Of a stretch of DNA of 64,000 nucleotides, positions 11,883-40,689 are shown piece after piece. Position 1 is the first letter of the stretch; the number at the start of each line of letters is the position of its first letter. Source of the DNA: Dermacentor variabilis (lineage: Eukaryota > Arthropoda > Arachnida > Ixodida > Ixodidae); NCBI RefSeq assembly GCF_050947875.1, contig NC_134572.1, positions 158,245,105 through 158,309,104 of the forward strand. The letters run 5' to 3'. The notes beneath the pieces were generated by a model, which was given only the letters and a program-made list of their open reading frames with translations, did not search any database and was not told where the DNA came from. The position numbers were made by a program, and so were the translations under genes.

Positions 11883-12258
<376 letters not shown>

Positions 12259-12509
12259 CCGGAAAGTGCGTGAAGTACCCCAAGAATGCTAACAAATTAA
12301 ATATGTTTTGAAATATATCCGGCAGTCGTAGAATTCAACTCATTCTCTGCGTGAACTACGCACCGCCGCTGGTAGATGGCGCGAATTATTGTCAGTATGT
12401 GGTGCAAAGCGCGAGTGAGGAATACGGCTGCATATAAGCTTCGGTGTTGGGAATATGGCGGACCGTTAAATTGCTTCATTGATAAACGCATTAGGTCGAA
12501 ATAGTATAT
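12259..12509. other. Unassigned spacer between GATA array and RTE element
   Basis: Nothing recognisable. Confidence 0.4.
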
Positions 12510-15185: not shown

Positions 15186-15902
15186 TAGAATAAGGTCATA
15201 TTAGATATTTTGCAATCTCAACTATTATTTAGCTGTCTACAGGCCTGCGAAACGCGAAATGAGCGTGCAACAAATAAGAGCTCATTCAACTCCACAACAG
15301 TCCGAGGCAACTGCTCGTGATTCAGCGGCAGAAAGAACAAGCAAAAAAGCGCAAAAACGACCACGCACGAGGCGGTACACAGGAAAGTGGCGTTTCCTGT
15401 GGGCTTCCCGGCTATTGCCATTCTCTTTACGTTTCCCATCATAAATTTACAGAGCCTTGCACAGTTTTCTATAAACTGAAAATACTGGGAAATCAATCCT
15501 TGTGTTTCCTCTTCTGTACAGGCTCGTCATCGCTTTGTCCACGTGCCTCAGGGGCTGCCAGAACACCATGCACACGTGACACCGTAAAGTCGTGCACTTG
15601 ACCTGATCAATCTGGTCTCATCCAGTCCAACTATATCATTACGAAAATTTGCCGTACACGCAGCAGTAAAACAACACCTTTATCTTTTGTACGTGAAAAA
15701 GTATTGCTCACATCAACAAACGTTGTGCCCGATGAAGCTCGACAGCAGCAAATTGAACGATGTGCTTTCTCGGCATACTGCAGTAGCCAAGTGGGGGCAC
15801 CATGCACCTGATGACGCTGATGTTGCTTTCTTCGCGTTTTATGTACAACATTACATCAGGAACACAGAATATACGGCGCCCGGGACACATCGAAGCCACG
15901 GG
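15186..15902 (+). repeat. 717-bp dispersed repeat, copy 1
   Basis: Clearly similar along its whole length, with scattered substitutions and small indels, to 58029-58748 in the same orientation. Shared phrases include GCCATTCTCTTTACGTTTCC/GCCATTCCCTTTACGCTTCC and AACCTTTATCTTTTGTxCGT. It starts near AGAATAAGGTCA and ends at AGCCACGGG. No conserved long ORF, LTR or terminal inverted repeat is seen. The class is unknown. Confidence 0.85.
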
Positions 15903-17112: not shown

Positions 17113-17649
17113 GCGCCATCCTTGCGATCTAAGCATATGGTAGCATAGACGGATCGTAGAATGGCTTGAGCAGATCTACGTGAACAGTTTCGCGACCGCG
17201 ACGGCGCTAATCAGAAGACGGTGACACAGGATCGACGACATTGTTCACGGGGGAAGTTTGTGCAATAACACGGTAAGGTCCATGATATCGTGAGAGCAGC
17301 TTAGAAGAAAGGCCAGGAGCTAAAGGTGGAACTCACAGCGAAACCAACGAATCGGAAGGGAAGCTTGGGGGATCACAGCCACCACGACGAAGCTTGTGGT
17401 GTGTCTGATCTACGGTGGTAAGACAGCGGGCGAGTTGTCTGCATTCTTCAGCATGCTGCGCAGCTTGAGAGACAGGACCACATTCTGATGAATCGGGCGG
17501 GTAGGGTAGACTTGTATCGATGGCGCAGGAACGTTCGCGGTCGTACAGTAAGAAAAACGGAGAAAAACCAGTGGTTGCTTGAGTGCCAGTATTATAGGCG
17601 AACATGACGAACGCAAGCACAGCGTCACAGTTCGAATGGGCGGACGCGA

Positions 17650-17659
17650 TGTACATGGC
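17650..17659. repeat. Target-site duplication of the nested LINE, left copy
   Basis: TGTACATGGC occurs here and at 18075-18084, exactly bracketing the LINE fragment. Removing the insert plus one copy rejoins the G2 integrase reading (..LAMY..). Confidence 0.85.
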
Positions 17660-18074
17660 AGCCCCGCGTGCTTGGATTGCGGCGAGGAGGAGACGCTTGA
17701 GCACCTTCTGCTCCGCTGCCCGGCCTTCGATGTTGAGCGCACTGCGCTCTTTGCATCATACCATCGTGTGGGACTGCCCTGTAACTCGGAGGGAGCACTT
17801 CTCTTTCCGGCAGCCCACCCTTCCATTGTCAAGAAAGTGCTTCCTGCCCTACTTGACTTTTGTTGTGACACGCAGCTGAGAGCGCGGCTGTAAGCCCCGC
17901 AGTGCTTTTTCAACCTTCTTGTTATTTCTTTCCGCCTTCTTTTCCTTCTCTCCCTGATTTTTTTCTCCCCACTCCCCTTTCCCTGTGCAGTGCTGTAGAG
18001 GTATCCTCCTCTCAGAGACAGTTACGGCACTGCACTTCACTCTTCCTCTCCTTCAAAAGTCACTACACACACAC
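17660..18074 (+). mobile_element. LINE 3' end nested in the G2 integrase
   Basis: It encodes the last ~80 residues of an ORF2: a zinc motif CLDCGEEETLEHLLLRCP, then FPAAHPSIVKKVLPALLDF, with the stop at 17891-17893. A pyrimidine-rich 3' UTR and a CACACACAC end follow. It is 5'-truncated, as is usual for target-primed reverse transcription. The ORF remnant is intact as far as it goes, so the insertion is younger than the G2 copy it disrupts. Confidence 0.85.
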
Positions 18075-18084
18075 TGTACATGGC
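18075..18084. repeat. Target-site duplication of the nested LINE, right copy
   Basis: Second copy of TGTACATGGC (see 17650-17659). Confidence 0.85.
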
Positions 18085-18801
18085 GAGTATGACGCCAAGA
18101 GTACCTTTCAAACACTCCGTCAACCCGTTTGTTTGCGGATGGTATGCACTAGTGTTCCTGTGTATGATGTTGCACTCCTTCAGAAGCGATGTCACGACAG
18201 CAGATAGAAAAAGCAAACTCGATCACTAAGTTCCCGAGGGGCTCCGTGACGGACAAAGTGCCGCAGTACGAATGATTCAGTCTTGGGCACTGGCAGATGG
18301 AAGTGCAGCGGTTTCTGCGTAGCGTTTGAGATGATACACTGCAACGATAATCCAGCGGTTGCCAGTCCTGGTACAAGAAAGTGGACCGTAAATGTCGATG
18401 CCGACGCGATCAAAACGACAGGACGCACAAGGAAGCCGCTGGAATGGTGCGGCAGTGGACGTAGGGACCGACTTTCGGCGCTGGCACTCGAGGCAGCAGC
18501 GGACGTACTTGTGAATGAACGTGTGCATTCCAGGCCAGTTATACCGGAGCCTAAGGCAGGTCTTTAACACGCTACCGTTTGCACATTGGGGATCAGTGTG
18601 AAACGTTGCGCATAAATCACCCCGAAGATGACGCGGCATTACGAGAAGCCATTGCCGACCCTTGGGGAGATAGTTGTGACGGTAGAGGAGTTGGTCGTGA
18701 ACAACAAAGTGATGCGCCGGCCGCCATAGCGTCTTAGATGCTGTAACAGTGGCAGGATCAGCAAGAAACTCCAAAAGCGAAGAAATCCAAGGGTCTTTGC
18801 T

Positions 18802-19331
18802 CTACTCAGAGCGCATGTCATCTATGGCAAGTGCTGACAGGACAACGTTGAGTGGGCAAAGACTGTGCCCGTCAGGGGAAATGGGCGAGCGGGAGAGAGC
18901 GTCGGCATCGGTATGTTTTGGTCCAGAGCGGTACACGACCTGGATGTCGTGCTCTTGCAAACGGAGCGCCCAACGTGCGAGGCGCCCAGAGGGCTCTTTC
19001 AATGAGGATAGCCAGCACAACGCGCGGTATTCCGTTACTACATCAAATTGGCGGTCCTATAAGCGAAGTCGAAATTTCGTAGTGGCATAGAGTATGGCGA
19101 AACACTCCTTTTCTGTAACAGAGTAGTTTGGCTCCGACTTTGTCAGCGTGCGGCTAGCATTAGCAACAACGTATTCCTTGAGCCCACATTGCGTTGGCCA
19201 AGAACTGCCCCAAGGCTGACTCTAGTATCATCTGTATAAACCTCAGTTGGGGCAGCGGGGTCGAAATATTGCAAAATAGGAGAGGTGAGCAGATGGTGAA
19301 GGGTTGTGAACGCGTCATCCGTTGCTTTAGA
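18802..19331 (-). pseudogene. RNase H of G2
   Basis: The C-terminal piece 19020-18802 reads [20 protein letters not shown] and [14 protein letters not shown]. The N-terminal piece up to 19331 is out of frame. The standard gypsy RNase H motifs are in the expected place between RT and integrase. Confidence 0.78.
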
Positions 19332-20225
19332 CTAGGTGGATAGGCCGTTGTCTCCAGCCAGCAGTTGATTCAAAGGGGCGATGATAATAGCAATGTTCTT
19401 CACAAAACGGCAAAAATAGGTGCAGATCCCGACGAAAATGCGCAGTGTCTTCAGGTTGGTGGGTTTGGAGAACTCCGCAACTGCACGGCGTTTTGCAGGA
19501 TCCGGAAGTAAGCCTTCATTGGATACGGCGTGGCCTAAGATGGTAAGCTTACGGGCAGCAAATAAGTATTTTTTGATAAGCTGCAGGCCAGCCTTAGTAG
19601 GGCAGCTTAACACCTTTCTTAGTCGTTGGAGGTGAGTCGGGAAATCAGATGAGAAGATGACATCATCTAGGTAGCACAAATACGTGTGCCACATGAGACC
19701 GCGCAAGATGTTGTGCATCATACGCTCGGAAGTAACGGGCACATTAGACAGGCCGAATGGCATGACATTAAATTCGTATAATCCGTACGGTGTGACGAAA
19801 GCGGTTTTCGAGCGGTTAGCCTCCGCCATGGGGACTTGCCAATACCCAGACCGCAAATCCAAAGAGGAAAAGAACTCGGCAGCTTGCAAACAGTGAAGAG
19901 CATCGTCTATGCGCTGTAAGGGATATACGTCGTTACGTGTAATTTTGTTAAGGCGTCTGTAACCTACGCAGAAGCAAATAAAACCATCTTTCTTTTTTAC
20001 GAGGGCGATTGGCGACGCCCACGGGCTATGGGACAGCTGAATTATGCCATGCCGAAGCGTATCTCTCATTTGTTCGTCGATGACACGTCGTTGAGAAGCT
20101 GAGAAACGGTAAGCACGCTGCTGGAGCGGGGCGTGCGAACAGGTGTCGATGCTGTGCGATACTGTGGTGGTGCGGCCGAGATAACGTTGATGGCAGTCGA
20201 AGGTGGTGCTAAATTTGCGTAGCAA
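19332..20225 (-). pseudogene. Reverse transcriptase of G2
   Basis: A 297-codon open frame, the longest in G2. It has SPWASPIALVKKKDG, LDLRSGYWQVPM, FGLSNVPVTSERMM, the active box LCYLDDVIFSS and the C-terminal connection RTLRIFVGICTYFCRF. Both catalytic aspartates are retained. Some conserved residues are altered (FCVGYRRLN where FCVDYRRLN is usual). Confidence 0.88.
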
Positions 20226-20254
20226 CCTGATAAGTTGCGCGCGTTGTGTGGTTG

Positions 20255-20895
20255 TCAGATCACCGGAGATCGACGGATGGAGGCACTACAGCGGCGGTTG
20301 ATTGGCAATGTCGAGAACAGCAAGGGACGTTGAATGTGCTTCGTCGGGAGAATCGAAGAGCATTGAAGAATCCACAGTTTGCACATAACCGAGGCACTTT
20401 CCGCGATGTAAAGTAATCGGCAGAAAAGACATTGCACACACACATAACACCACGGCCAGCACTGAGGGCGAGAACGCAGGGAATGGTGACGGACGAAGAA
20501 GTGACATGGCGTGAAAAGCACGGTTGCGCCACGTGCTGATGCGCAAGATACGGAGACGACGGCGGCTGACTGAGGAGGGATATCATTCAGTAAGTTCGGC
20601 CACAAGCATTTTTGCAGACGCCACAGGATCTTGGTCCATGGCTGCATTGGCAAGAAAAGACAACTCCCCCTCGGCGCGGGCACAGTCAAGGATGGCATTG
20701 TTTGACGAAAGGCAATCCCAGCCTAGGAGAACATCGTGCGAGCAGGACGCCAGCACAACGAATTCGACGACATGAAGCGCCTCCTCGGTGACAACACGTG
20801 CAGTGCAGGCTCCCATTGTTTCGACAGGCTGTGCCCTCGCAGCACTCAAACACACTCCGGAAAGTGACGTCGTTACTTATCCTACTCGTCGGCAA
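20255..20895 (-). pseudogene. Protease and linker of G2
   Basis: Frame 20855-20583 carries the protease C-terminal motif CSHDVLLGWDCLSSNNAILD. The active-site Asp region lies upstream near 20900-20940 in another frame. The frame past 20583 leads toward the RT with several breaks. Confidence 0.7.
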
Positions 20896-22324
20896 AGTTC
20901 TGCGCGTAACACCGAAATTGCTGTGCCTGTACCTACCAGTGTGAATGTTTGAATCCTTTCGTCGTATACCTCAATGACATTGCAGGGGTTATTTCGAGGC
21001 CTTTGGGAAATCGAAGGGGACGCAGTTCTCGCCTGGGGTACTGCGACACTTAGTTTCGCTGAGGATCTAAGTTGGTGAGATGGAGCGGCGGCCTGGAGAT
21101 GGGGAACGACGAGCTGTTTGAGAACAGTGGTTTCATCCGGCGGCACAGGAGATTGTAGCTGTCGAGTGACGTAAGTGCTCATGGGTCGGCGGTTATCATA
21201 AATATGTAGCATACGGCGTCGACAAACACGGGCAACGTGTCCCGGAATACCACAATGGTAACAAATTGGGCGGTTGTCCGCGGTGCGCCAAGTATATTTA
21301 GCTGACTTGGTAGCTGTGGTCCAGGCGGTGAGAAGAGAATCGGGGGTGGTCGCGCAACAGCTTGAAGAGGTGGACGTGAAGCGAAGGGCGGCCTTGCAGC
21401 GACGTCAGCGTACGTCAGGGGCGCCGCGACCGTAGGCGGTTAAATAACAGCTGGTAGGAACTCCGCGACTTGCTCCTTCATGACGCTCTGTAACCCCGGT
21501 GTCAATGGAGAGTGTGGTTGCGCGTTCGTAAAGGGCACCAGGGAAAGCTGCCGACCAACTTCTCGTATGAATTCCTTTGCCTAGTGCATTAGAGGCGACT
21601 CCTCAAAAGCTAGGGTCAGACCTGAGACAGCGGCGAATTCTGAGGACGGATGTCGTGTGACTACGCGCTGCCTTCGAAGTACGTTGTAACTCTGACACCG
21701 CGCAATGACGACAGACACTGTGAGCGGGTTTCGGGCGATCAACAGTTCAAAGGCGTTGTCCTCAATTCCCTTGAAGATATGCCTGATCTTGTCGGCTTCT
21801 GGCATTGTTGCATCGACTCTGTTGCACATATTAACCATGTCTTCGATGTAGCAGGTGAAATTCTCACCTGGTTGCTGGGCGCGTCCAAGCAGGCGTTGTT
21901 CGGCCTGGAGTTTGCGGAGAGCAGGACCACCAATGACTTCTGTGAAGTTGGTCTTGAACGCCGACCATGTCGGTATGTCTGATTCGTCGTTACGATACCA
22001 CAAAAATGCAACGTTGCTCAAGTAGAAAATTACGTTGTTGAGCTTTGCCGTATCGTCCCAGTCGTTGTGCGCGAAGACTGTCGTACGAGGCGTGCCAGAC
22101 CTCGACGTCCTGATCACCGGTGCCCGCAAAAATAGCAGGGTCCCGCTGACGCTGCACGCCAGGAGAGATGACAGTTCGTGCAGTGACTGCAGCTTGTTGA
22201 GCTGGATCGTCAGCCATGGTTCGAGAATGCTGGACAGGATCATACGGCATGGGCCGAGCAGGTTGAAGGGTTCGGCTTCGAACTTCCAGCGTTGATGGAG
22301 TCGTACCCCGCACTCTCCACCAAA
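20877..22324 (-). pseudogene. Gag of G2, with zinc knuckle
   Basis: Capsid block in the frame 22387-21581 (YRNDESDIPTWSAFKTNF, RLLGRAQQPGENFTCYIEDM, NRVDATMPEADKIRHIFKG) and a CCHC knuckle CYHCGIPGHVARVC near 21265-21225 in another frame. It resembles the G1 and G3 Gag layout. Confidence 0.8.
22300..22323 (-). other. Primer-binding site candidate of G2
   Basis: Minus-strand TGGTGGAGAGTGCGGGGTAC begins a few bases inside the 5' LTR. It resembles the G1 site (TGGTGGACGTGCGGGGTGC). Confidence 0.5.
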
Positions 22325-22627
<303 letters not shown>

Positions 22628-22975
22628 TAGTTAGATATGCAGCTAAATATCCAGCGTCAGCCAAATGCGAGATCGTAGTGCACTGCTCTTTGAAGTGCTT
22701 ATATAGTATTTTTATTTGTAATAACATTGAAGTGTATTCAGTGTCCCATCAAACCAACGTTTAGGGTTATATTGGCAGTGTGTAGATAACGTGCTAAAGG
22801 TATGTTGTAAAATAATGTTCACATTTTCTCAATTTCATATATTATTCGTCTCTAGTGCATACCTGATAAATTGTGCCTGCAACAGTTGTGGTACATATCA
22901 TTTACGTTTAATTTACATTACCCAAAAAAAGAGATTGTATTTTTAGAGCGCAGCTCTTTGGCGTCCGTTCCTGGG
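22628..22975. other. AT-rich unassigned interval
   Basis: No gene or repeat recognised. Confidence 0.4.
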
Positions 22976-23339
22976 TTTCGCGTCGTCGTCGTCGTCGGCG
23001 TCGTCGTCGGCCTCGTAACCAGCTCCGCCCCCCTTTCATCCCCCCAGCGCTAGCAGCGACCGACTGATACCGCTGGATGCCGCTGACGCCGCTAGAGAGT
23101 CAAGATAACGTGACTGCATAGAACACCGTCGCCGCCATGCAGAAAGAGGAGGAAAGGGTCCCCCCCCCCTGTTCTTGTGTGGCGGATAGCTGGGGTTGAC
23201 TCACTATCGCCGTCAGCGGCATCAGTCAGTCGCTGCTATCTCTTCCCTCCTCCCTTTATCGTGTTGTCCTCTTGCTGCGCGCGCTTCTGCCCCCATCGTT
23301 TGCCGCTGGGTGTACACGCCGCCCCCCTCCGCTTCCGCT
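22976..23339. repeat. GTC-rich and GC-rich low-complexity flank
   Basis: A GTC trinucleotide run (22983-23015), a C run (23160-23170) and repeated GCCGCTGACG/GCGGCATC phrases precede the 51-bp repeats. No ORF is supported. The composition is sharply more GC-rich than the preceding AT-rich stretch. Confidence 0.6.
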
Positions 23340-23481
23340 TACTGCTGGTTGCTCTCGACGGCGGCGATGAGCCTCCGCTTCGGCGGCGCGAACTGCAGGG
23401 TCTTCTCGGCGGCGGCGATGAGCTTCTGCTTCAGCCTCGCTTACTGCTGGTTGCTCTCGACGGCGGCGATGAGCTTCCGCT
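23340..23481 (-). repeat. 51-bp (17-residue) arginine-rich coding-like repeats, downstream part of split array
   Basis: Minus-strand translation gives units of the form AEAHRRRREQPAVSEAE and AEAHRRRREDPAVRAAE, alternating between a QPAVS and a DPAVR type. About three units lie here. The array is cut by retroelement G4, whose other side (30313-30366) carries a fourth unit. Whether the array is translated is unknown. A long minus frame (23642-23256) runs through it, but its start lies in the G4 LTR and so cannot be native. Confidence 0.75.
23478..23481. repeat. Target-site duplication of G4, left (CGCT)
   Basis: CGCT immediately precedes TGTTTGGG. The same CGCT follows the right LTR at 30313-30316. 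Removing G4 and one copy rejoins the 51-bp repeat in frame (..RAAEA|EAHRRRRE..). Confidence 0.85.
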
Positions 23482-23654
23482 TGTTTGGGATCCGACAGCT
23501 GGTACGATCTGTTGGGAACTCGGCGCTGACGCCCGTGGTTGTACCTGGGTCGCAAGCCCCAAGGGTAGCGTTGGCCTGGCGGCCTGGGGTACAACTGGAA
23601 GCATCCGAAGGTCCCGGCAAAGCATGAGTCGACTGGTAACAACGAAACAACTTG

Positions 23655-23660
23655 TTTATT
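23655..23660 (-). promoter_or_regulatory. Polyadenylation signal AATAAA in G4 3' LTR
   Basis: The plus-strand TTTATT is AATAAA on the minus strand, about 110 bases downstream of the TATA box, defining the likely R region. Confidence 0.7.
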
Positions 23661-23770
23661 TTAACATCGCAAAGAGTTGGCGGTCAGGTTTGACCGTAGT
23701 AGAGAGACGGGAGAGCACTTCACTCAACAGAAGAAATCGGAGCCCTCCCTTTGGCGTCCGGGGGCAGCTG

Positions 23771-23778
23771 TTTTTATA
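23771..23778 (-). promoter_or_regulatory. TATA box in G4 3' LTR
   Basis: Minus-strand GAGTATAAAAACAGC, a consensus TATA element between U3 and R. Confidence 0.7.
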
Positions 23779-23952
23779 CTCTCGCAGTTGAGGGCAAGAA
23801 GGAACCCCTCAAAAGACGAGCACGTGAATGTACAATGGGCTAATGGTGACGCACACTGTCGTAGCGATGCCGTAGCACCATGTCGAGCACGATCTCGTAG
23901 CACCCTGTCGTGGCGCTGCCGGTCGGACACAATGACTGTAATGAGAGGATGG

Positions 23953-24093
23953 TCCCTGCTTTGGCATCGCCTGTTTCGGGCACAATGACTGGAACGAGAT
24001 CCCTGCTTTGGCATCGCCTGTTTCGGGCCCAATGACTGGAATGAGATCCCTGCTTTGGCATCGCCTGTTTCGGGCACAATGACTGGAATGCGA
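23953..24093 (-). repeat. Three 47-bp tandem repeats in U3 of G4 3' LTR
   Basis: Units start at 23953, 24000 and 24047 with TCCCTGCTTTGGCATCGCCT, plus a partial unit before (23930-23952). Their position upstream of the TATA box is typical of retroelement enhancers. The same triplication is in the other LTR (30026-30166). Confidence 0.85.
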
Positions 24094-24239
24094 GGATGAT
24101 CCCTAGGCGGTCGCATCGCCGCAGTCGCGCCTGGAAACACCTGGCGATGAGTGTTGCGGCGACGACGATCGGGCCAAAATGTCTGCCGCCCCACCGCAGT
24201 CGCGCCGGCAAAACCACGTGTCGCAGGCGAAACGCAACA

Positions 24240-24725
24240 GACCGCCCCGCCGGGGGAAGGAGATCCCGATGGACAGGGGACTGCATCCGCTGTCCGGAGG
24301 GATGTCGCTCGATGATGCTCATAACCGAAGTCGGGCGTCCCTCGACGTTTCTTGAGCGCAGCGCACAGAGAAGGCCTCGTTCTCTTGTTCAGGTTCGCAC
24401 GGGACACTGCAAAGTGACTTCGGGAGAGTTCACATTTTTGTTCTCGTTCCCGGCAAGCGTTAGAACTACGCTGAAACTCAACCGCTCAGTCAGCAAGCAC
24501 GGCACAACCCTCACTAAGCCCTGCCAGGCTCTTTCCCCTTTTTATACCACTGCCTAGTTCCTTACAGTAGTCTAGCATCACTCAGAACGCGTCCACAAAT
24601 TGAAAAATTGCACTAGAAAGCATATCATCACTTTGAAACACTAAACAAAAGCAATATGTTAAAAAAAAAATCCTGCCTCAGGAAGAAAACATCAGTAACA
24701 AACAATTTTGAGGCTGATTCCTACG
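24240..24725 (-). other. 3' non-coding region and polypurine tract of G4
   Basis: Between the gag-pol stop and the 3' LTR there are 486 bases with no envelope-like frame. The last bases before the LTR read GGCGGGGCGGTC on the minus strand and are the candidate polypurine tract, interrupted by pyrimidines. Confidence 0.6.
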
Positions 24726-27700
24726 TTAGGGGCTTCGACTTAAGCCATCGGCGTTACCGTTGAGACTCCCCTTTTTGTAACGCACCTCAAAGGAATATTG
24801 TTGTAAAGCGAGGCTCCAGCGCAGGAGGCGGCCATTTTTGGGAGAGATGGTCTGCAGCCATTGGAGAGGGCAGTGATCCATCTCAATGATAAACCTCGAG
24901 CCGGCTAGATAGCATGACAATTTCTGAACGGCCCACACGAGACATGCACACTCTTTCTCGGTGGCGCTATACGCCTGCTCACGACTGGTCAGCTTACGAC
25001 TAGCATACAGGACGGGGTGTTCTACTTCTCCATTTTCCCGTTGGCACAGTACAACGCCCATGCCTCGCTCACTAGCATCGCACTGAACAATGAACCCTTT
25101 TGTATAGTCTGGCGATCGTAGCACAGGCTGGCTTGTTAGGGCACTCTTTAGGGCGCTAAAAGCTCTTTCCTTGGTCTCGTCCCAGACGACTGTTTGAGGC
25201 TCTGTCTTTCTTAGAGCATCCGTCAGGGGAGCCGCGATATCAGAGTACCTGGGGATGTACCTCTGATAGTAGCCGGCGACACCTAAGAACGACCGAATAT
25301 CGGTCTTCGTGCGCGGTTGCGGGAAGTCTCGCACAGCGGCCACCTTTATTTCAGAGGGGCGGCGACGACCCTGACCAATCACGTGACCGAGGTAGACAAC
25401 CTCGGCCTGTGCTAACTGGCACTTAGAAGCCTTGACTGTCAAGCCCGCTTCGCGCAGGCGGATTAGCACTGCCCGCAAGTGTGCCATATGCTCAGACCAG
25501 GATGCGGAGAATATCGCTACGTCGTCTAGATACGGTAAAGCGAATTCTTGCTGTCCCCGCAACACTTTATCCATGAGGCTTGAAAAACAGTATGGCGCGT
25601 TCTTCAAACCAAAACTCAACACTTTAGGACGGAATGTTCCCATTGGTGAAATGAACGCCGCATACCTACTAGCCTCTTCTGTAAGTGGAACCTGCCAATA
25701 ACCCCTGACAAGATCTAGGGTGGAAATAAACTGAGCGCTACTAACTTTCTCAAGGCGCTCCTCGATGTTAGGGATCGGATAAATTTGATCCTTAGTGATG
25801 GAATTAAGCCTGCGGTAGTCGACGCAAGGACGAGGTTCCTTGCCCGGTACCTCAACTAAAATCAAAGGGGAGGTATAATCACTCTCACCTGCCTCAATAA
25901 CACCGAGCTGTAGCATTTTCTTTACCTCAGCCTCCATAATATCGCTCTGGCGGGGTGACACCCGATACGCCTTGGATCGTACTGGCTCTGTGGAGGTAAG
26001 TTCTATATCATGAGTAAGTACAGAAGTCCTACCAGGCCTCTCAGAGAACAGACCTTGAAACTCTTGTAATAGCTGGTGTAGTTCGGTTTTCTGCTCGGGC
26101 GACAGCGGTGCTTTACTGATAAGGTCACTAATGACTTGACCGGTGTCTTCCCTGTTCGTCACTGAGCCTAGTCCCGGAAGCTCGACTGGAAGCTCTTCAG
26201 GAACGTTTATCATCATGCACACCACTGCTTCCCGTTGTCTATAAGGTTTGAGCAGATTACAGTGGTAAACTTGCTGTGCTTTCCGCTTTCCTGGCAGACT
26301 TACCACGTAGTTAACGTCCGACAGTTTCTGAACAATTCGTGCTGGGCCCTCCCACTGCACGTCTAGTTTGTTGTTTAGCGATGTGCGCAATATCATGACC
26401 TCATCGCCAACCTCAAAACGACGGGCCCTGGCTGTCCGATCATAATAAACCTTGGCCCTCTGCTGGGCCTTTGTCATTGCTTCACCTGACAACTCCTGTG
26501 CCCTTCTTAAGCGTTCGAGGAGCTTAAGCACGTACTCCACCACGACTGGGTCGTCGCCCCTACCTTCCCATGATTCTCGAAGCATGCGAAGCGGAGATCG
26601 AAGCGAGCGACCGTACACCAGTTCAGCTGGCGAAAACCCCGTAGCTGCATGCGGCGCGGTCCGTAAAGCAAACATCACCCCAGGCAGACACAGCTCCCAG
26701 TCAGTTCGATGTTCAAACCACAATGCTCTCAACACGCGCTTCATGACGGAGTGGAGCTTCTCAACGGAATTCGACTGTGGGTGGTACACTGAGCTGTGTA
26801 GCAGCTTTACCCCACACCTTTCGAGAAAAGTTGTCGTCAAAGCGCTAGTAAACACTGTGCCCTGATCTGATTGGATTTCCGCAGGAAAACCAACTCGCGC
26901 AAATATGGACAGTAGTGCATTGACTATCTCAACTGAGCTGAGTTCTTTAAGCGGCACTGCTTCAGGGAACTTTGTCGCTGGGCAGATCACAGTCAAAATG
27001 TGTCTGTACCCCGTGGCTGTTACCGGCAGAGGTCCCACTGTATCAATAACGAGCCGTCTAAAAGGCTCCGTTATGATAGGTACCAATTTCAACGGCGCCC
27101 TTGATTTGTCCCCTGGTTTGCCCACCCGCTGACAAGTGTCACATGTCCTCACGAAATGGTCTGCGTCCCGAAAACACCCTGGCCAATAGTACTCTTGCAA
27201 GAGACGGTCCTTAGTTTTCTTAACTCCTAGGTGTCCGGACCACGAACCCCCGTGTGACAAGCGCAACAGATCCTGACGATAGCATTGAGGCACGACCAGC
27301 TGATCGAACTCCACTCCTCTGCGGTCTAGATACTTCCGGTACAGGACTCCACCCCTTTCCACAAAACGCGCAGTTTTCCTGGCGATACCTTCCTTGACAT
27401 TGCAGCGAATGTTTTCCAGGCTGCCATCCTTTTTTTGCTCGGCTATCAAAGCCGACCGGCTGACTTTTAGCAACCTATCAAGTCCGTCTGACGTAGGCGC
27501 GATAAGCAAATCAGTAGATAGCTCTTCTAACTTTCCCGCGTCGGGCGTTTCCTCTCCAGTATCTGGCGCCTTTAACGTTACAGACTCAAGTTTATTCAGT
27601 TCGGGCGTGCTCGGAATATCAGCTTGCTGCGCCTCTGACCCTCTTTCGTTGTTTGATAACGTCGGCCCCGCAACTACCGCCTTTGCAGCGAGCTCCCGAA

Positions 27701-29201
27701 CCTTCGATCTGGTTAAGGCCTGAACACTAGCTTCACCAAACAAAAGCCCCTTCTCGCGCAGGAGGTGATCGGACCTGTTTGAAAATAGGTACGGGTACTG
27801 GGGTGGCAGCATAGATGACACTGCCGCCTCTGTCTCAAGCGCTCCGAAAGGTCCTTCAATAAGCACTTTTGCTACCGGCAGACACACGCTATGAGCTTCC
27901 ACGGCTTGCTTGATCCATGCGCACTCGCCCGAGAACATATGGGGTTCTACGTAAGACGGGTGAACTACATCCATCGTAGCTGCGGAATCGCGAAGCACTC
28001 GGCACTCTTTCCCGTTCACGAGGAGGTCTCGCATGTAAGGCTCGAGAAGCTTCATGTTCTCGTCAGTGCTGCCTATTGAAAAAAACACAACTTTTGGTGT
28101 TGTTTCCGGACACTGCGCCGAAAAGTGACCCGGCTTCTGGCACGTATAACAAACGCCCGCTCGCCTCATCTCGAACCGCTTTCTGCGTTCGGCTTCGGCT
28201 GCCGTCTCTTTACGTTTGGTCGGACTGCTTTCACTCGCATCCTCCCTACGCGTGTCCCCTTTTAATCTCATGGGCGTGAACTTCGGCCTCTCAAACTTCG
28301 AGCCAAATTCACCCTTTTGACCGTCCTTAGCTCCGCGAGCTCGACGCGTCACAAACTCCTCGGCTAGCTCAGCGGCTCTAGCCACCGTACTCACGTCTGG
28401 CCTATCCAAGACCCAGTATCGCACGTTCTCCGGTAACCGACTATAAAACTGTTCTAGCCCGAAACACTGCAGAACTTTATCGTGGTCACCAAACGCTTTC
28501 TCTTCTTTGAGCCACTCCTGCATGTTCGACATAAGCCTATACGCAAACTCTGTATATGACTCACTTCTGCCTTTCTCATTTTCCCGAAACTTCCGACGGA
28601 ACGCCTCCGCAGACAGCCGGTACTTTTTTAGAAGACTCGATTTCACTGTGTCGAAATCCTCTGCCTCCTCTCTATCCAAGCGAGCGACTACGTCGGCCGC
28701 CTCGCCGGGTAACAAAGTGAGCAAGCGCTGTGGCCACGTTTCCCGAGAGAACCCCTGCTTCTCGCACGTTCGCTCAAAGTTAACCAGGAACAAACCAATG
28801 TCCTCTCCAAGCTTAAACGGCCGCATCAGGTCAGTCATTTTGAACAATACGCGTTCTCCTGCACCGTGTGCCTGACTTCCATTACGAGCGCGTTCCATCT
28901 CTACCTCGAGACGCTTCATTTCCAAAGCGTGTTCGCGCTCTTCTTTTTTCTCTTGTTGCTCTCGCTCTTTCTGTTCTTTACGTTCACGCTCTTCTTTTTC
29001 TTTCTGTTCTTTAAGTTCGCGCTCCTGTCTTTTTGACCTCTCCTCAATAGTCTCAAGGCATTCCGACAGCTCGTCATCCTCAGCCTCTAACTCAAGAATA
29101 GCCTTTAGCAGTTCAGGTTTTCTTAGTTTGTCTGAGACATCCAGACCCAACTCTCTTGCAAGCTCCAACAATTTCGGTTTGCGCAACGACTTCAAATCCA
29201 T
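24726..29201 (-). CDS. Gag-protease-integrase-RT-RNase H polyprotein of G4
   Basis: One uninterrupted frame of 1491 codons starting at an ATG just after the leader. Approximate residues: 1-36 SAP/HeH-like helix pair (LRKPKLLELARELGL); 40-107 charged coiled coil; 125-290 capsid resembling the SCAN fold; 351-364 CCHC knuckle (CYTCQKPGHFSAQC); 405-407 protease DSA; 650-690 integrase HHCC finger (H650, H657, C687, C690); integrase triad D720, D779, E814 with 34 residues between the last two; GPY/F-like WEGPARIV near 950; RT about 1060-1320 with YLDD at 1224-1227; RNase H about 1370-1491 with D1375, E1417, D1442 and the final NADGLSRSP. Integrase preceding RT, and Gag and Pol fused in one frame, are both unusual for Ty3/gypsy. 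The catalytic residues I could check are present. Confidence 0.95.
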   Translation of the reverse strand: MDLKSLRKPKLLELARELGLDVSDKLRKPELLKAILELEAEDDELSECLETIEERSKRQERELKEQKEKEERERKEQKEREQQEKKEEREHALEMKRLEVEMERARNGSQAHGAGERVLFKMTDLMRPFKLGEDIGLFLVNFERTCEKQGFSRETWPQRLLTLLPGEAADVVARLDREEAEDFDTVKSSLLKKYRLSAEAFRRKFRENEKGRSESYTEFAYRLMSNMQEWLKEEKAFGDHDKVLQCFGLEQFYSRLPENVRYWVLDRPDVSTVARAAELAEEFVTRRARGAKDGQKGEFGSKFERPKFTPMRLKGDTRREDASESSPTKRKETAAEAERRKRFEMRRAGVCYTCQKPGHFSAQCPETTPKVVFFSIGSTDENMKLLEPYMRDLLVNGKECRVLRDSAATMDVVHPSYVEPHMFSGECAWIKQAVEAHSVCLPVAKVLIEGPFGALETEAAVSSMLPPQYPYLFSNRSDHLLREKGLLFGEASVQALTRSKVRELAAKAVVAGPTLSNNERGSEAQQADIPSTPELNKLESVTLKAPDTGEETPDAGKLEELSTDLLIAPTSDGLDRLLKVSRSALIAEQKKDGSLENIRCNVKEGIARKTARFVERGGVLYRKYLDRRGVEFDQLVVPQCYRQDLLRLSHGGSWSGHLGVKKTKDRLLQEYYWPGCFRDADHFVRTCDTCQRVGKPGDKSRAPLKLVPIITEPFRRLVIDTVGPLPVTATGYRHILTVICPATKFPEAVPLKELSSVEIVNALLSIFARVGFPAEIQSDQGTVFTSALTTTFLERCGVKLLHSSVYHPQSNSVEKLHSVMKRVLRALWFEHRTDWELCLPGVMFALRTAPHAATGFSPAELVYGRSLRSPLRMLRESWEGRGDDPVVVEYVLKLLERLRRAQELSGEAMTKAQQRAKVYYDRTARARRFEVGDEVMILRTSLNNKLDVQWEGPARIVQKLSDVNYVVSLPGKRKAQQVYHCNLLKPYRQREAVVCMMINVPEELPVELPGLGSVTNREDTGQVISDLISKAPLSPEQKTELHQLLQEFQGLFSERPGRTSVLTHDIELTSTEPVRSKAYRVSPRQSDIMEAEVKKMLQLGVIEAGESDYTSPLILVEVPGKEPRPCVDYRRLNSITKDQIYPIPNIEERLEKVSSAQFISTLDLVRGYWQVPLTEEASRYAAFISPMGTFRPKVLSFGLKNAPYCFSSLMDKVLRGQQEFALPYLDDVAIFSASWSEHMAHLRAVLIRLREAGLTVKASKCQLAQAEVVYLGHVIGQGRRRPSEIKVAAVRDFPQPRTKTDIRSFLGVAGYYQRYIPRYSDIAAPLTDALRKTEPQTVVWDETKERAFSALKSALTSQPVLRSPDYTKGFIVQCDASERGMGVVLCQRENGEVEHPVLYASRKLTSREQAYSATEKECACLVWAVQKLSCYLAGSRFIIEMDHCPLQWLQTISPKNGRLLRWSLALQQYSFEVRYKKGSLNGNADGLSRSP

Positions 29202-29555
29202 GGCTGCTCTGAATGCTGCTTTCTCTACTGCTTACTATTGTCTTGCCGCAAACTAACCCGGCAGCAACGACAACCACAATTACCAGCTCTGTTTCTGACA
29301 CTAACAAAAGCCTGGCAAAGCTCAGAAGAAGAAAGTCCCGCACTCACCAAACCTCGCAGGCAGGAATTCCGCGTAGTCGTTCCGCTGCAGGCAACCAGTC
29401 GTCACACAGGGCTCGTTGCACTGCTCCCGGATCGTCGTTGAGCTGCTCAGCATACAGTCAGCTGCATCTCTTCGCTGCTGGCCTCCGTTGTCGCGATCCC
29501 ACCGCTGGCAGACAGTTGTTTGAAGTCGGAGGCGATCTCACCGCTGCCAACCAGA
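29202..29555 (-). other. 5' leader and primer-binding site of G4
   Basis: Minus strand starts TC then TGGTTGGCAGCGGTGAGATC, beginning TGG as required for a tRNA 3' CCA. CAGCGGTGGGAT-type sequence is found in the complement of some tRNA-Leu 3' ends, so tRNA-Leu is a guess. A related phrase (GCCAGCGGTGGGATCGCG) recurs about 45 bases further in. Packaging signals cannot be defined by eye. Confidence 0.55.
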
Positions 29556-30312
29556 TGTTTTGATCGGACTGCTGGTACGATCTGTTGGGAACTCGGCGCT
29601 GAATCCCGTGGTTGTACCTGGGTCGCAAGCCCCAAGGGTAGCGTTGGCCTGGCGGCCTGGGGTACAACTGGAAGCATCCGAAGGTCCCGGCAAAGCATGA
29701 GTCGACTGGTAACAACGAAACAACTTGTTTATTTTAACATCGCAAAGAGTTGGCGGTCAGGTTTGACCGTAGTAGAGAGACGGGAGAGCACTTCACTCAA
29801 CAGAAGAAATCGGAGCCCTCCCTTTGGCGTCCGGGGGCAGCTGTTTTTATACTCTCGCAGTTGAGGGCAAGAAGGAACCCCTCAAAAGACGAGCACGTGA
29901 ATGTACAATGGGCTAATGGTGACGCACACTGTCGTAGCGATGCCGTAGCACCATGTCGAGCACGATCTCGTAGCACCCTGTCGTGGCGCTGCCGGTCGGA
30001 CACAATGACTGTAATGAGAGGATGGTCCCTGCTTTGGCATCGCCTGTTTCGGGCACAATGACTGGAACGAGATCCCTGCTTTGGCATCGCCTGTTTCGGG
30101 CCCAATGACTGGAATGAGATCCCTGCTTTGGCATCGCCTGTTTCGGGCACAATGACTGGAATGCGAGGATGATCCCTAGGCGGTCGCATCGCCGCAGTCG
30201 CGCCTGGAAACACCTGGCGATGAGTGTTGCGGCGACGACGATCGGGCCAAAATGTCTGCCGCCCCGCCGCAGTCGCGCCGGCAAAACCACGTGTCGCAGG
30301 CGAAACGCAACA
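29556..30312 (-). repeat. 5' LTR of G4 (757 bp)
   Basis: Near-identical to 23482-24239. It drives transcription of the element: TATA at 29844-29851 and AATAAA at 29728-29733 on the minus strand. The right boundary ACA|CGCT is defined by the target duplication. Confidence 0.93.
29844..29851 (-). promoter_or_regulatory. TATA box of the G4 5' LTR promoter
   Basis: Minus-strand GAGTATAAAAACAGC. It would start transcription shortly downstream, toward lower coordinates, giving an RNA through the leader and gag-pol. Confidence 0.7.
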
Positions 30313-30366
30313 CGCTTCGGCGGCGCGAACGGCAGGGTCTTCTCGGCGGCGGCGCTTAGCCTCTGC
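30313..30366 (-). repeat. 51-bp arginine-rich repeat, upstream part of split array
   Basis: Minus strand reads AEAKRRRREDPAVRAAEA directly up to the G4 LTR, a DPAVR-type unit. With the three units at 23340-23481 it forms one in-frame alternating array once G4 is removed. Confidence 0.75.
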
Positions 30367-30389
30367 TTCCCCCACGGCTGTGACAACCT

Positions 30390-30510
30390 CGCGAGGCACT
30401 TGTATAGATCTCGTCTTTGAGAATCAAGCATTGGTGTACCAAGTCGAACATATATCAGTCTATTTCTCCGACCACAAAGCTTCCTTCATGACTGTCAAGA
30501 ACTGTTAGTG
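30390..30510 (+). pseudogene. Endonuclease-like C-terminal fragment
   Basis: A plus-strand frame ending at 30508 reads TSRGTCIDLVFENQ and VYFSDHKASFMTV. This resembles the last motifs (S-D-H) of an APE-type endonuclease, as found in LINEs and at the C-terminus of some Helitron-like proteins. About 40 residues only. The parent element is not identifiable. Confidence 0.4.
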
Positions 30511-30955
30511 GAGTCTTTGTTAAAGGAATACGTGTGAAAAATAAAAAAAAATTATGTGATAGCGCATACATGTGTTGCTCGATTTCTTTGCCTCAATCTA
30601 TCCAAAAGGTGAAACAGCTTATTTGCTGCGCTCAAATTTCGCATTAGGAAGTAACGTAATCGTCGGTAATTTTTTTCTGGTGCAGTCTAAATATGATCGA
30701 ATAAAAAAATACAGTGAACTGGGAAGGTAACGCTATAACGAAAAATTTTTGCTAGTAGTTCAATTATCTTTTTGTAGCAATCATAGAGCACCCATAGAAC
30801 AGCAGTCAGGCTTTTGGTTTGAACCCAACTACGGCTAGATTTATTCTTAATTTAGACTTATGCAGCTACGGCGCCAGTTGGCTTGCCAAATGCGTGTGTG
30901 TGCTACTACTGCTACTGGGAATACTACTCACTTGAATATTACCTTAGCACAGCTA
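30511..30955. other. AT-rich unassigned interval
   Basis: No gene or repeat recognised. Confidence 0.4.
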
Positions 30956-31142
30956 TGCACATTAGAAAAGTCATTTTATTGTTACTTGTGGAAAGACACA
31001 GATTAAAGAGGCTATATACAGGCTATTTACACTGGAGACAGATAGCCAGGCCGACACTCGCTCGCGCCAAGGGCACAGACCCACTTCGTCGTCGTCCTCG
31101 CGGTGGCTCGTCCCTTGAGCATCGCTCGATGATATTGTAATA
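30956..31142 (-). repeat. 3' LTR of G3
   Basis: The transcribed-strand start TATTACAATATCATCGAG matches the remnant at 35410-35373. It holds AATAAA at 30980-30975 (minus). The left boundary is approximate because no complete second copy exists. Confidence 0.7.
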
Positions 31143-31165
31143 CTACCCCCCGGCCGCAAAAGCGC
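31143..31165 (-). other. Polypurine tract of G3
   Basis: Minus-strand GCGGCCGGGGGGTAG directly precedes the LTR start. Confidence 0.6.
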
Positions 31166-31244
31166 CGTCACGGTGCTGTTAAATATCCAAGGTGCGTGGA
31201 GAGTTGTAGGGTTTGAGTCGGGCGACGTGGACAATGTCACTGGT

Positions 31245-32400
31245 TTAAACAGCGGAGGACGCAGTGGGCGTGGCTAGAGCGATTTCGTAGGTGACATCGG
31301 TTACTTGGCGAAGCACGCGATATGGGCCTGTGTAGCAGGAAAGCAGTTTTTTACAAAGGACAACTTTACGTGATGGTGACCAAAGCAACACGATGGTGCC
31401 GGGCACAAAATGGACATCACGGTGACGGAGGTCGTAGCTTCGCTTTTGTTTGCCTTGAGAGACTTGTAGACGAGTGCGCGCAAGTTGGCGAGCATGGTCA
31501 ACATGGGCGATAGCATCACGGGCATAAGCGCTAGCTGAAGCTATGGTGGACGGAAGCAGAGTGTCCAGTGGTAGCGCCGGTTCACGGCCATACAAGAGGT
31601 AAAAAGGCGAAAAGCCAGCAGTTTCGAGACGGGAAGAGTTATACGCAAATGTAATGTGAGGTAGAGCCTGGTCCCAGTCACGGTGGTCGTCTGAAACGTA
31701 TTTGGATAGCATGTCTGTAAGGGTGCGGTTCAAACGCTCAGTGAGGCCGATCGTTTGAGGGTGGTAGGAGGTGGTAAATTTATGCTATTTGAGCAGGCAC
31801 GCATGATGTCGTCAATGACTTTGGCTAAGAACGTACGGCCACGGTCTGTTAGCAATTGACGCGGAGCACCATGAATCAAAATGATATCATGCAGGAGGAA
31901 GTCCGCTACATCAGTTGCGCAACTGGTCGGAAGAGCGCGGGTTACGGCATAGCGGGTCGCGTAGTCCACCGCGACTGCAACCCACTTGTATCCTTATGTA
32001 GATTCCGGAAATGGGCCGACAAAGTCTAAGCCGACTCGATGGAAGGGCTCGACAGGGATGTCAAGCGGCTGTACGTAACCAGCGGGGAGCTGGGAAGTCT
32101 TCTTGCGTAGTTGGCTAAGTTCACAAGTGGCGACGTAACTTCGTACGGAACGGGCACGGCCCGGCCAGAAAAAACGGCGACGCACACGGTCATAGGTTCG
32201 AGATACGCCGAGGTGTCCCGCCGTTGGTGCGTCATGAAGCTCTTGTGGAACGGTTGAGCGGAGGTGTTTAGGTATGACAAGTAGGAACTCAGAGCCGTCC
32301 GGATGAAGGTTACGACGGTACAGAGTACCGTCGCGGAGGACGAAGAGGCGTAGAGTGCCATCGGCCGGAGAGTGTTCAAAACGGTCGATGAGTGCTCTGA
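31245..32400 (-). pseudogene. Integrase of G3
   Basis: Frames 32632-31994 (containing a zinc-finger region with [22 protein letters not shown] partly changed to CELSQLRKK, and the core start [13 protein letters not shown]), 31969-31730 (DYATRYAVTRALPTS, LTDRGRTFL) and 31733-31245 (ITFAYNSSRLETAGFSPFYL, GPYRVLRQVTDVTYEI). The finger's second cysteine is lost, and frameshifts lie between the pieces. Confidence 0.82.
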
Positions 32401-32976
32401 TGTAGGCGTCACGACGTTGTTCGTCGGCGAAATGAAGCAGCTGCGACACAGATAATACACAAGCAGCACTGGAAATATTGGAGGAATCAGGGTCGTCAAC
32501 AGGGTAACGCGAAAGCTGTGAGCGTCCTGGTGCAGGCGGCCAGACTTGTAGACCATGGAATATGAAAATTTTTGTAGCCTCAAAGCCCATCGACCAAGCC
32601 CGCCTGTAGGATCCTTTAGCGATGAGAGCCAAAAGAGAGCATGATGGTCAGTGACTACGGAAAAAGGGCGACCGTAAAGGTAAGGACGGAACTTCGCAAC
32701 CGCCCAGACTACAGCAAGGCATTCTCGTTCCGTATTAGAATAGTTGCGCTCCAATGGTGTGAGGAGGCGGCTCGCATAAGCAATAACGCGATCCTGGCCA
32801 CGCTGACGCTGGGCTAAGACGGCACCTACGCCATGACCGCTGGCATCTGTACGCAATTCTGTAGGGGCATCAGGGTCGAAATGGGCGAGAAAGGGTGGTG
32901 AGGAGAGAAGAGTGCCGAGACGAGAGAGGTCGGCGGCTTGTGCAGTACCCCACGGGAATTGTACGCCTTTCTTCAA
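32400..32976 (-). pseudogene. RNase H of G3
   Basis: The N-terminal half of the frame 32976-32026 reads [40 protein letters not shown] and [20 protein letters not shown]. It loses register near the end, where the D.LSR motif should be. Confidence 0.85.
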
Positions 32977-33681
32977 AAGATTAGGGAGGGGTCTAGCAAT
33001 TGCCGCAGAATCTTGAACAAAATGACGAAAGTACGAGCATAGCCCGACAAAACTTCGAACTTCTGCGGCTGTCTTCGGAACAGGAAACTCTCGGACAGCG
33101 CGAGTTTTGTCGGGATCAGGCTGTACTCCGGAAGCGTCACTGAGGTGGGCCAGAACAGTAAACTGGCGGCGACGGAAACGACATTTGGACGAGTTAAGTT
33201 ACAGCTTCGCCTTTCGAAATACATCAAGTATAGCTGTTAGACGCTCAAGGTGAGTGTCGAACGTGAGCGAGAAGACGATGACGTCGTCGAGGTACCAGAG
33301 ACATGTGGGCCATTTGAAACCACGGAGCAAAGAGTCTATCATACGCTCAAAGGTGGCAGGGGCGTTGCACAATCCAAACAGCATTACATTAAATTGGTAT
33401 AGGCCGTCAGGTATGATGAACGCGGTTTTTTTTCTGTCCATATCGTCAACAGCAATCTGCCAGTATCCAGAACGAAGATCAATGGAAGAGAAATAGCTGG
33501 AACCATGGAGGCGGTCAAGGGCGTCGTCTATACGTGGGGGCGGGTAGACGTCCTTCTTAATAATGTTGTTCAGATGGCGGTAGTCTACACAGAAGCGCCA
33601 CGAGCCATCCTTCTTCTTAACCAACACTACAGGTGACGCCCAGAGACTCGAAGACGGCTCAATGATGTTTTTGTCCAGCAT
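32977..33681 (-). pseudogene. Reverse transcriptase of G3
   Basis: Frame 33681-33199 carries SPVVLVKKKDGSWRFCVDYR, IDLRSGYWQIAVDDMDRKKT, FGLCNAPATFERMIDS and the active box LWYLDDVIVFS. The C-terminal connection part continues in another frame (33227-32973). Catalytic residues are retained. Confidence 0.88.
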
Positions 33682-33691
33682 TTCGTTGACT

Positions 33692-34657
33692 TCACTTTGA
33701 ATTACTCGGCGTTCCGACGCAGAAACTCGATACGGTCGTCGGTGAATGGGAGTAGCATCTGCCAGTAAGAATCCGATGCTTGACCACGAGCGTCTGGCCT
33801 ATCGAGCGATCGTCGAACTCGAAAATATCTCTGTAGGACGTTAATACTTGGTAAAGGTCTTCAGCCTGCGCAGAGGACAGGTCCGTCGCAACCATTTTCT
33901 GTATCTTGGGGTCGGCGGCCGAGGCTGGAACGATAGGCCTGCTGAGCTCGCAAGAAGCATCGGTCGATAAAGTTGCCACGTGATGGTTGCCGAGACAATC
34001 AACGGTGTCAAGGCAAATACCTTGCGGTAGAATTTGTTTTGCCAATCCAAAGTGAAAGATAGGCATGAAAGTGCGGTTCGCAGTAATAATAAGTACACTG
34101 TGAGGCATGGCAACGTCATACTGTAGTGGAATGCCGGACAAAGGAGTGACGAGGTACTCGCCATCAAGAACTGGTGGGGAAGACAAGAGTTCAATATAGG
34201 CGATTGATTTTGGCGGCAGGCGAATAAAGCCGGTGGGGCGTAGGCGGTACTGAGGTGTGTAAGAAGGTTCTGCGAGAATCGGCAACTCAAGGCGAAGGGC
34301 ACTAGCAGAGCAGTGAATAAGAACAGAATGCGCGGAGAGAAAATCGTGGCCGAGAATGAGGTCGTGGGGGCAATGAGCAATCACAGTGAAAAGGACAGGA
34401 GTGTGGCGGTCGGCGATGCTAACGCGTACCGTGCACATACCGATGATAGGCACAGTACCGCCATCCGCAACGCGGACGACGCATGCCGACGCTGGGGTGA
34501 GGAGCTTGTTCAGTCGTCGTCGCAAGGCAGCACTCATAATAGAAAGATGTTCACCTGTATCGATGAGTGCAGTGACAGGATAGTCATCAGCGTCAACGTC
34601 AAGAAGGTATTGGTTCGTGTGTAACGTGAGCAGAGGATTTGAGGGCAGGGTGGACAA
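33692..34657 (-). pseudogene. Protease and linker of G3
   Basis: A 321-codon frame starting with the protease: active site TALIDTGEHLSIMSAALRR, C-terminal motif HDLILGHDFLSAHSVLIHC, then a long linker that reaches the RT N-terminal leader (DIFEFDDRSIGQTLVVKHRI). This is an unusually well-preserved stretch for this element. Confidence 0.85.
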
Positions 34658-34664
34658 CGCAGCT

Positions 34665-35372
34665 TCACCTCCAGAAGCTGCAGTGCCTAGTTTTCCGACT
34701 GGAGCCAGGAGGCGATAGGCGACACAGAGAAGCGACGGGGTTGGGGCGAACGAGACTGATGGCGTCGAGGTGAGGGCGAGCGGCTGTAGCGAAGGTTCGG
34801 GGCAGGAGCATCAGCGGCAATGGGTTCATGGCGGGTGGCATAGGGAACAGAAGGTCCAAAGGGGCGGGAATGAGCGGCGGTGTATGTCCGAGGAGGTGGT
34901 GGCCATCGCTTGCGGCAGTGACGAGAGACGTGGCCGATGCGACAGCAGTGAAAGCAGATCGGCCTGTCATCAGGGGTACGCCATTCGGCCGGGTTGCGGC
35001 GAGATGTGGCAGAAAAGGACTGCTGGGAACGAGGAGGGCTGCTAGAGAATTAGGGAACCGTGGGTGTAGACGATGAACACACGGAGTTGAGACCCATGTT
35101 CTCAAATTCCTGTCTGGCGACGGCCTGAATCAGCGCAATCGTGGTTGCTGGTGGATCGGGAGGCGTCGCGGAGAAAGCTGGCAAACAGGCAGCCTCGAGC
35201 TCGCGGCGAACAATACGAGTTACGTCGTCACAGGGGGTAGTCTGACGCGGTCGACCCTTACATGTCGACGTAGCAGCAGTGTTGGGCAGCCGCGTGATGT
35301 GTTGTGTGATACGGCGGCTCTTAGGTTGTTCAAGGCGACGACATTCTTTGATGATGGCTTCGATAGTCGAGC
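34665..35372 (-). pseudogene. C-terminal gag of G3 with zinc knuckle
   Basis: It includes a CCHC knuckle CFHCCRIGHVSRHC near 34955-34915 and the preceding proline/arginine-rich region. The frame begins abruptly at the deletion junction with the LTR remnant at 35372. Confidence 0.75.
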
Positions 35373-40551: not shown

Positions 40552-40686
40552 TCACGCTTCATTTCGACGAGGCATGGTGGGTGAAAGTCCATTCGGCACG
40601 AAGTGCCAACCGTAAAAGAAGTCACGCTTCATTTTTACGAGGCATGGTGGGTGAAAGTCTTTTCTGCGTGAGGTGCTAGACGCCAG
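40552..40686. repeat. Approximately 68-bp tandem duplication
   Basis: GAAGTCACGCTTCATTT.GACGAGGCATGGTGGGTGAAAGTC occurs at 40551 and again at 40619 (with T for C/G changes). Confidence 0.8.
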
Positions 40687-40689
40687 CCG

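Follow-up and report, generated by a model that had tools for sequence, protein, structure and literature searches.

We analyzed a 64,000-nucleotide (nt) stretch of the genome of the tick Dermacentor variabilis (the window; contig NC_134572.1, positions 158,245,105 to 158,309,104). A frame of 1491 amino acids (aa) lies on its minus strand, running uninterrupted in the open reading frame list from an ATG at 29201 to a stop at 24726; the next-longest listed frame within 20000-34000 is 321 aa. The frame encodes, in order, a SCAN-type Gag, a zinc knuckle, a protease, an integrase, a reverse transcriptase (RT), and an RNase H. Long terminal repeats (LTRs) and a 4-bp target-site duplication bracket this Gag-Pol frame and thus delimit a whole element. 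It is very probably a complete, recently inserted Gmr1-like LTR retrotransposon of the Ty3/gypsy type, from a young, high-copy tick family. Its features are as follows.

24726..29201, minus strand: single Gag-Pol frame, 1491 aa (open reading frame list)
28341..28607, minus strand: SCAN domain (capsid C-terminal type), aa 199-287 (Pfam; E 3.5e-14 on the first 500 aa)
28104..28154, minus strand: CCHC zinc knuckle, aa 350-366 (Pfam)
27702..28070, minus strand: retropepsin-type protease region, aa 378-500 (alignment to relatives and predicted fold)
27120..27293, minus strand: integrase zinc-binding domain, aa 637-694 (Pfam integrase zinc finger)
26778..27071, minus strand: integrase core, aa 711-808, with D720, D779, and E814 present (Pfam rve)
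26244..26348, minus strand: integrase C-terminal domain, aa 952-986 (Pfam p58_C)
25377..25841, minus strand: reverse transcriptase, aa 1121-1275, YLDD at 1224-1227 (Pfam RVT_1)
24795..25184, minus strand: RNase H, aa 1340-1469, last acidic residue D1485 (Pfam)
29556..30312, minus strand: 5' LTR, 757 nt, TG...CA, with 47-nt tandem repeats inside (LTR comparison)
23482..24239, minus strand: 3' LTR, 758 nt, TG...CA (LTR comparison)
30313..30316, no strand: target-site duplication, left in element orientation, CGCT on the plus strand (flank comparison)
23478..23481, no strand: target-site duplication, right in element orientation, CGCT on the plus strand (flank comparison)
29536..29553, minus strand: primer binding site (PBS), starting 2 nt past the 5' LTR (window copy imperfectly complementary to the tRNA-Leu(AAG) 3' end)
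29493..29510, minus strand: second PBS-like unit, 39 nt further on, 16/18 identical to the PBS region (core matched in 63/67 copies)
24240..24255, minus strand: G+C-rich stretch directly before the 3' LTR, in the position of a polypurine tract but not purine-only (one 16-nt sequence in 66/67 copies)

An earlier note on this DNA had described an intact, single 1491-codon frame in an apparently complete copy. Both descriptions stand, as there is no internal stop and the frame is enclosed by LTRs of 757 and 758 nt and by the duplication. The residues it named are also correct (knuckle from 351, D405, H650, D720/D779/E814, and YLDD at 1224-1227), and the integrase triad has the form D-D35-E. The SCAN domain and the LTRs are additions to that account. 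A Rho_N-like Pfam match at aa 2-42 fell under its cut-off. Inside the 5' LTR we found what we take to be a TATAAAA box and an AATAAA signal. The two LTRs differ by 6 substitutions and one 1-nt gap, and 5 of the 6 substitutions fall within the last 50 nt. Pieces of a 51-nt tandem repeat make up the sequence flanking the element.

Class and kinship of the element

The Pfam families matched by Gag-Pol include rve, RVT_1, and a gypsy-type RNase H, and the best PDB relative is Ty3. Neither RVT_2, expected of a copia-type RT, nor a chromodomain, expected of a chromovirus, is among the 14 families listed up to E 1. An env gene would have little room in the 486 nt (24240-24725) between the pol stop and the 3' LTR; minus-strand frames of at least 100 aa that reach into this interval extend on into the LTR. 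Two protein scans of viral contigs found no relative. Features that mark Gmr1-like elements are present: the integrase lies upstream of the RT, both domains group with those of integrase-first elements, and the Gag is of the SCAN type, which is common but not universal in such elements (PMC4131045 reports it in more than half of frog Gmr elements). Judged by sequence, the window element is a Gmr1-like member of Ty3/gypsy, as the earlier note had proposed from its gypsy-like sequences in Gmr1-like order.

To place the element among its relatives, we used residues 600-1491 as the query, scored the 7,984 candidates sharing the most words, and listed 120 of 2,066 matches. The integrase match precedes the RT match in 116 of these 120. 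Two pseudoscorpion proteins (P0084 and P0114) are RT-first, one predicted protein (P0072) has two integrase matches with the RT match between them, and one (P0049) has no integrase match. The closest listed protein is from Amblyomma americanum (V5799_014060, P0004), with 96% identity over 92% of the query residues. Long relatives among the listed matches are named as Haemaphysalis, Ixodes, Ornithodoros, Rhipicephalus, spider, and beetle proteins.

The RT and integrase trees held 70 rows each, comprising 47 integrase-first rows (the window element and 46 of 113) and 23 of 139 RT-first rows. All 47 integrase-first rows lay on one side of a branch in the RT tree (support 99/95) and likewise in the integrase tree (100/98), with RT-first references drawn from one species. 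In both trees the window element stands beside P0004, within a subgroup of 33 rows supported at 100/100 (RT) and 100/99 (integrase). Where named, the hosts of this subgroup are ticks, spiders, and a beetle; several rows carry no host name.

Some relatives have other layouts. In P0049, also from A. americanum, the Gag-protease part runs straight into the RT, the layout of an integrase-less derivative; this protein matches the genome of the window at 94% over its whole length and at up to 98% over the RT part. A locus in that genome (G000:C5:164488420-164491572) has the same integrase-less layout, with two stops. Two Ixodes persulcatus predicted proteins (P0249 and P0258), in which the SCAN/Gag part is joined to host domains (vitellogenin-type and IQ), are probably annotation fusions.

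Copies and integration in the tick genome

We searched the genome of the window (2.48 Gb in 605 contigs) with the RT and integrase pieces. The 87 best RT places and the 86 best integrase places overlap only at the window copy. The genome therefore contains no fewer than 172 distinct copies, whose searched piece is 99-100% identical at the protein level. Open frames of at least 1450 aa are present at 152 of the 173 best places. The integrase piece lies directly before the RT piece in 8/8 loci read, the window's own and 7/7 others; in one (L006) an insertion interrupts the integrase part. RT before integrase, which the earlier note had named as grounds for rejecting its reading, was seen in none of the other 7 loci.

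For LTRs and flanks we took the window element and 70 further copies, of which 67/71 were complete and 4 were dropped because their LTRs were incomplete in the stretch. The median LTR-LTR substitution is 0.0012 per site, with zero in 29/67 copies; the 6 substitutions of the window pair correspond to 0.0080 per site. A duplication of at least 4 bp borders 65/67 copies; the two others, L039 on its left side and L059 on its right, adjoin element-like sequence, as would be expected of tandem copies. All left flanks are distinct (67 in 67 copies). Around the 4-bp duplication, T is found at -3 in 34/65 sites (binomial p 5e-6 against flanking composition) and A at +6 in 40/65 (p 3e-10), and the target preference is weakly palindromic. 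The family is young and high-copy. Length differences of 46-94 nt between the LTRs of a single insertion, roughly one or two 47-nt U3 repeats, occur in 4/67 copies (5'/3' pairs L013/L014, L047/L048, L051/L052, and L075/L076).

In 12/67 copies, the 18 nt of the PBS are exactly complementary to a tRNA-Leu 3' end plus CCA. Two variants that differ by an added T and other changes account for 35 and 17 copies, and the last 3 copies have different forms; priming by one tRNA only was rejected, given that 55/67 copies differ from the exact 18 nt. We counted 109 occurrences of the 22-nt tRNA end in the genome (reversed control, 0), and ARAGORN called a tRNA-Leu(AAG) ending exactly at the matched end in 1 of 3 candidate places fetched. 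The tRNA-Leu 3' ends are densely arrayed at G000:C3:79660680-79738435, spaced mostly by about 749 nt and multiples; one member of this array was called tRNA-Leu(AAG), the tRNA matched by the family's primer site.

Taken as a working element, the insertion would be transcribed from its 5' LTR and translated as one Gag-Pol polyprotein. The SCAN-type capsid and the knuckle would package the RNA, and the embedded aspartic protease would cleave the polyprotein. Reverse transcription would be primed by tRNA-Leu(AAG), to which the match is observed, and integration would proceed with a 4-bp stagger at a weakly palindromic target, consistent with the duplications and the preference observed.

We weighed this interpretation against two others. 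A chimera or misassembly, in which a gypsy RT had been joined to the integrase of another element, could have drawn its parts from the several broken RT-first gypsy elements in the window. It is refuted by the independent copies, which have the same order (7/7 other loci in the genome, and the 116 listed relatives); in addition, the RT and integrase trees agree and the LTRs and 4-bp duplication bracket the whole, leaving this explanation a negligible probability. A long intact frame might also be a domesticated host gene, and the accessible portion of PMC3424704 reports that SCAN domains have been domesticated in vertebrates, but LTRs, a target duplication, at least 172 dispersed copies, and a distinct left flank at every one of 67 insertions refute a host gene, which we regard as extremely improbable.

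Several points do count against a complete Gmr1-like element. The evidence consists of DNA sequence and predictions. All 23 RT-first tree rows are from Cordylochernes scorpioides, 5 of them on long branches; the integrase-first rows were gathered by similarity to the query; and the named Gmr1 type sequence, from cod, is represented in the trees by frog, turtle, urchin, and amphioxus integrase-first proteins as stand-ins. The places found in the genome are best matches only, biased toward intact copies. The stretch preceding the 3' LTR is no typical polypurine tract, and 55/67 copies carry a PBS other than the exact tRNA complement. With these points weighed, a complete and recently inserted Gmr1-like element remains by far the most probable interpretation.

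Protease motifs and U5 ends

Two departures stand out in the window element, its protease motifs and the discordance of its U5 ends. No Pfam protease match with a usable score was found in Gag-Pol, and relaxing the limit to E 10 gave none within residues 1-500; a Spuma_A9PTase match at aa 998-1084 (E 0.013) was under its cut-off and outside the protease region. We modeled a 133-residue piece aligned with 74 relatives (a 75-row alignment). It was confidently predicted to adopt a retropepsin fold (mean predicted local distance difference test score, 88.4), and the solved structures that match it best come mostly from retroviral and Ddi1 proteases. According to the available text of PMC2642776, clan AA has a canonical template with D-T/S-G and I-L-G. 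The window protease has the predicted fold and the catalytic Asp of this clan but neither motif, carrying D405-S-A-A-T instead of D-S/T-G and L-F-S instead of I-L-G.

Motifs were readable in 119 of 138 rows, window included. The first motif is DSA in 45, DSG in 34, DTG in 33, and another in 7. The ILG glycine is replaced by Ser in 44/45 DSA rows, and the DSG/DTG rows readable at this position have Gly (45), Ser (18), or Ala (1). One DTA row (P0076) retains the ILG Gly, which argues against a strict order of changes. On a 76-row RT tree, a quick method gave at least 6 changes of the Gly/Ala state, gains or losses, 3 of them forced by starred branches.

We read the protease as probably working but non-canonical, with both clan-AA signature glycines replaced: in a family that has multiplied, it keeps its catalytic Asp and predicted fold, and conservation extends over much of the domain. 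The replaced glycines, and their frequency among relatives, would also fit a protease-like domain that is no longer catalytic, kept for folding or assembly while Gag-Pol is cut by the protease of another element or of the host. We consider such a dead protease unlikely. All rows of the 75-row alignment keep the catalytic Asp (of the full 119 rows, P0050 and P0072 lack it), further stretches of the domain are conserved alongside the confidently predicted fold, and D-S-A-A-T and L-F-S are identical in 6/6 other copies read. If the protease is active, D-S-A and L-F-S would show that both retropepsin signature glycines are replaceable, in a group whose Gly/Ala state has changed at least 3 times.

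The second departure emerged from comparing the LTR pairs of the 67 copies of this one family in assembled sequence. The 97 LTR-LTR substitutions crowd toward the end: 53 fall within the last 50 nt, where 6.0 would be expected, and the final 30 and 20 nt contain 50 (against 3.6) and 39 (against 2.4). Changes in the last 30 nt of U5 affect 20/67 copies. In a first batch of 39 copies, 14 were affected against 1.9 in shuffles (0/2000 as high); in a second batch of 28, fetched as a repeat, 6 were affected against 1.5 (2/2000 as high). Copies with a target duplication account for 19/65 against 3.4 in shuffles, and the affected copy that lacks one, L039, may be a tandem junction. The 22 copies discordant in the last 24 nt show 0 (15 copies), 1 (5), or 2 (2) substitutions outside the last 50 nt, repeat-number gaps aside.

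The U5 end is also more variable between copies. Of the 22 discordant copies, 14 share their 5' end and 11 their 3' end with another copy (only 5' in 7, only 3' in 4, both in 7, neither in 4). Because ends are partly shared with other copies, some of the discordance resembles switching among ends that already exist, and some of it is unique. Some U5 ends resemble the PBS (CAGCGGTG-GATC, 12 of 13), a likeness reached by 21/67 copies at the 1% level of shuffles and 36/67 at 5%.

In canonical reverse transcription, both U5 copies descend from one strong-stop DNA, which does not predict this discordance. We tentatively propose that the two LTRs of one insertion often draw their U5 ends from different templates, the last ~30 nt being a site of recombination during reverse transcription; we hold this to be plausible, if short of probable. 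For example, minus-strand synthesis might run past the PBS into the U5 of a second packaged RNA and leave a heteroduplex beside the PBS. The discordance may instead come from assembly error or a mutational hot spot, or may be shared by LTR elements of this genome in general. Two further candidates were rejected. A first-strand error at tRNA initiation would place the same error in both LTRs, and the unique end is not clearly one-sided. Ectopic exchange of whole LTRs would bring differences elsewhere: 300 random pairs of 3' LTRs average 18.0 substitutions outside the last 50 nt (11/300 with 3 or fewer), against 0-2 in the discordant copies. The discordance co-occurs with a retropepsin lacking both signature glycines. 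If the U5 discordance is real, LTR pairs would preserve a record of which template a natural retroelement used at its primer site.

Neighboring sequence and known systems

A broken Ty3/gypsy element lies beside the window element at 31248-34810 (minus strand), with protease, RT, RNase H, and integrase in the usual order, and related gypsy fragments lie at 4344-7889 (minus), 17336-21404 (minus), and 47558-50648 (plus). All four have a pseudoscorpion RT-first protein as their best match in the relative set. Two RVT_1 frames with neither integrase nor RNase H matches, at 40555-42168 (minus) and 13902-14831 (plus), are perhaps non-LTR elements. Two diverged direct-repeat sets, 76-89% identical, pair 36474-38061 with 61069-63617 (about 24.6-25.6 kb apart) and 15344-15870 with 58185-58714 (42.8 kb apart). 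A long (GATA)n array lies at about 11803-12357.

The integrase-first order is already known, and by kinship the window element is, on its sequence, a new member of a known group. Integrase before RT and a SCAN Gag are described for Gmr1-like elements in the available text of PMC2774666, PMC3424704, PMC4131045, and PMC2582038. The earlier note's expectation that an arthropod copy would extend the group did not hold: a 2013 paper presented decapod crustacean members as the first known from protostomes, as far as the accessible part of PMC3587641 goes, and relatives from ticks, spiders, and a beetle are in the databases. An annelid member was reported in 2021 (PMC8220671, in its available part). 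We found no publication on tick Gmr1-like elements, which, judged mainly by titles and with subscription papers mostly outside the search, is only weakly indicative of absence. With 172 or more near-identical copies, most scored ones long-framed, the family offers a sample large enough to study, in the Gmr1 lineage, which targets are preferred, which primers and templates are used, and how old copies are relative to one another, and a SCAN-type Gag in a tick element bears on the origin of the vertebrate SCAN domain.

The Gmr1-like elements of vertebrates and other deuterostomes (Goodwin and Poulter 2002) share with the window element the order protease-integrase-RT-RNase H, the SCAN-type Gag, and the same side of a branch in both trees; the window element differs in its separate 33-row subgroup and its protease signature. 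The decapod GyRex4, GyRex5, and others (PMC3587641) are reported arthropod members of the clade, but in the available text GyRex4 and GyRex5 are partial (RT/RNase H and integrase) and are likened here by description only. V5799_014060 of A. americanum and related tick proteins have the same Pfam domains in the same order; V5799_014060 is listed as a hypothetical protein without LTRs, at 88% identity over residues 1-600. Ty3/gypsy elements of the usual order, such as yeast Ty3 and the fragments at 31248-34810, share the RT/RNase H and integrase families of the window element. In both, unlike in the window element, the integrase comes after the RNase H.

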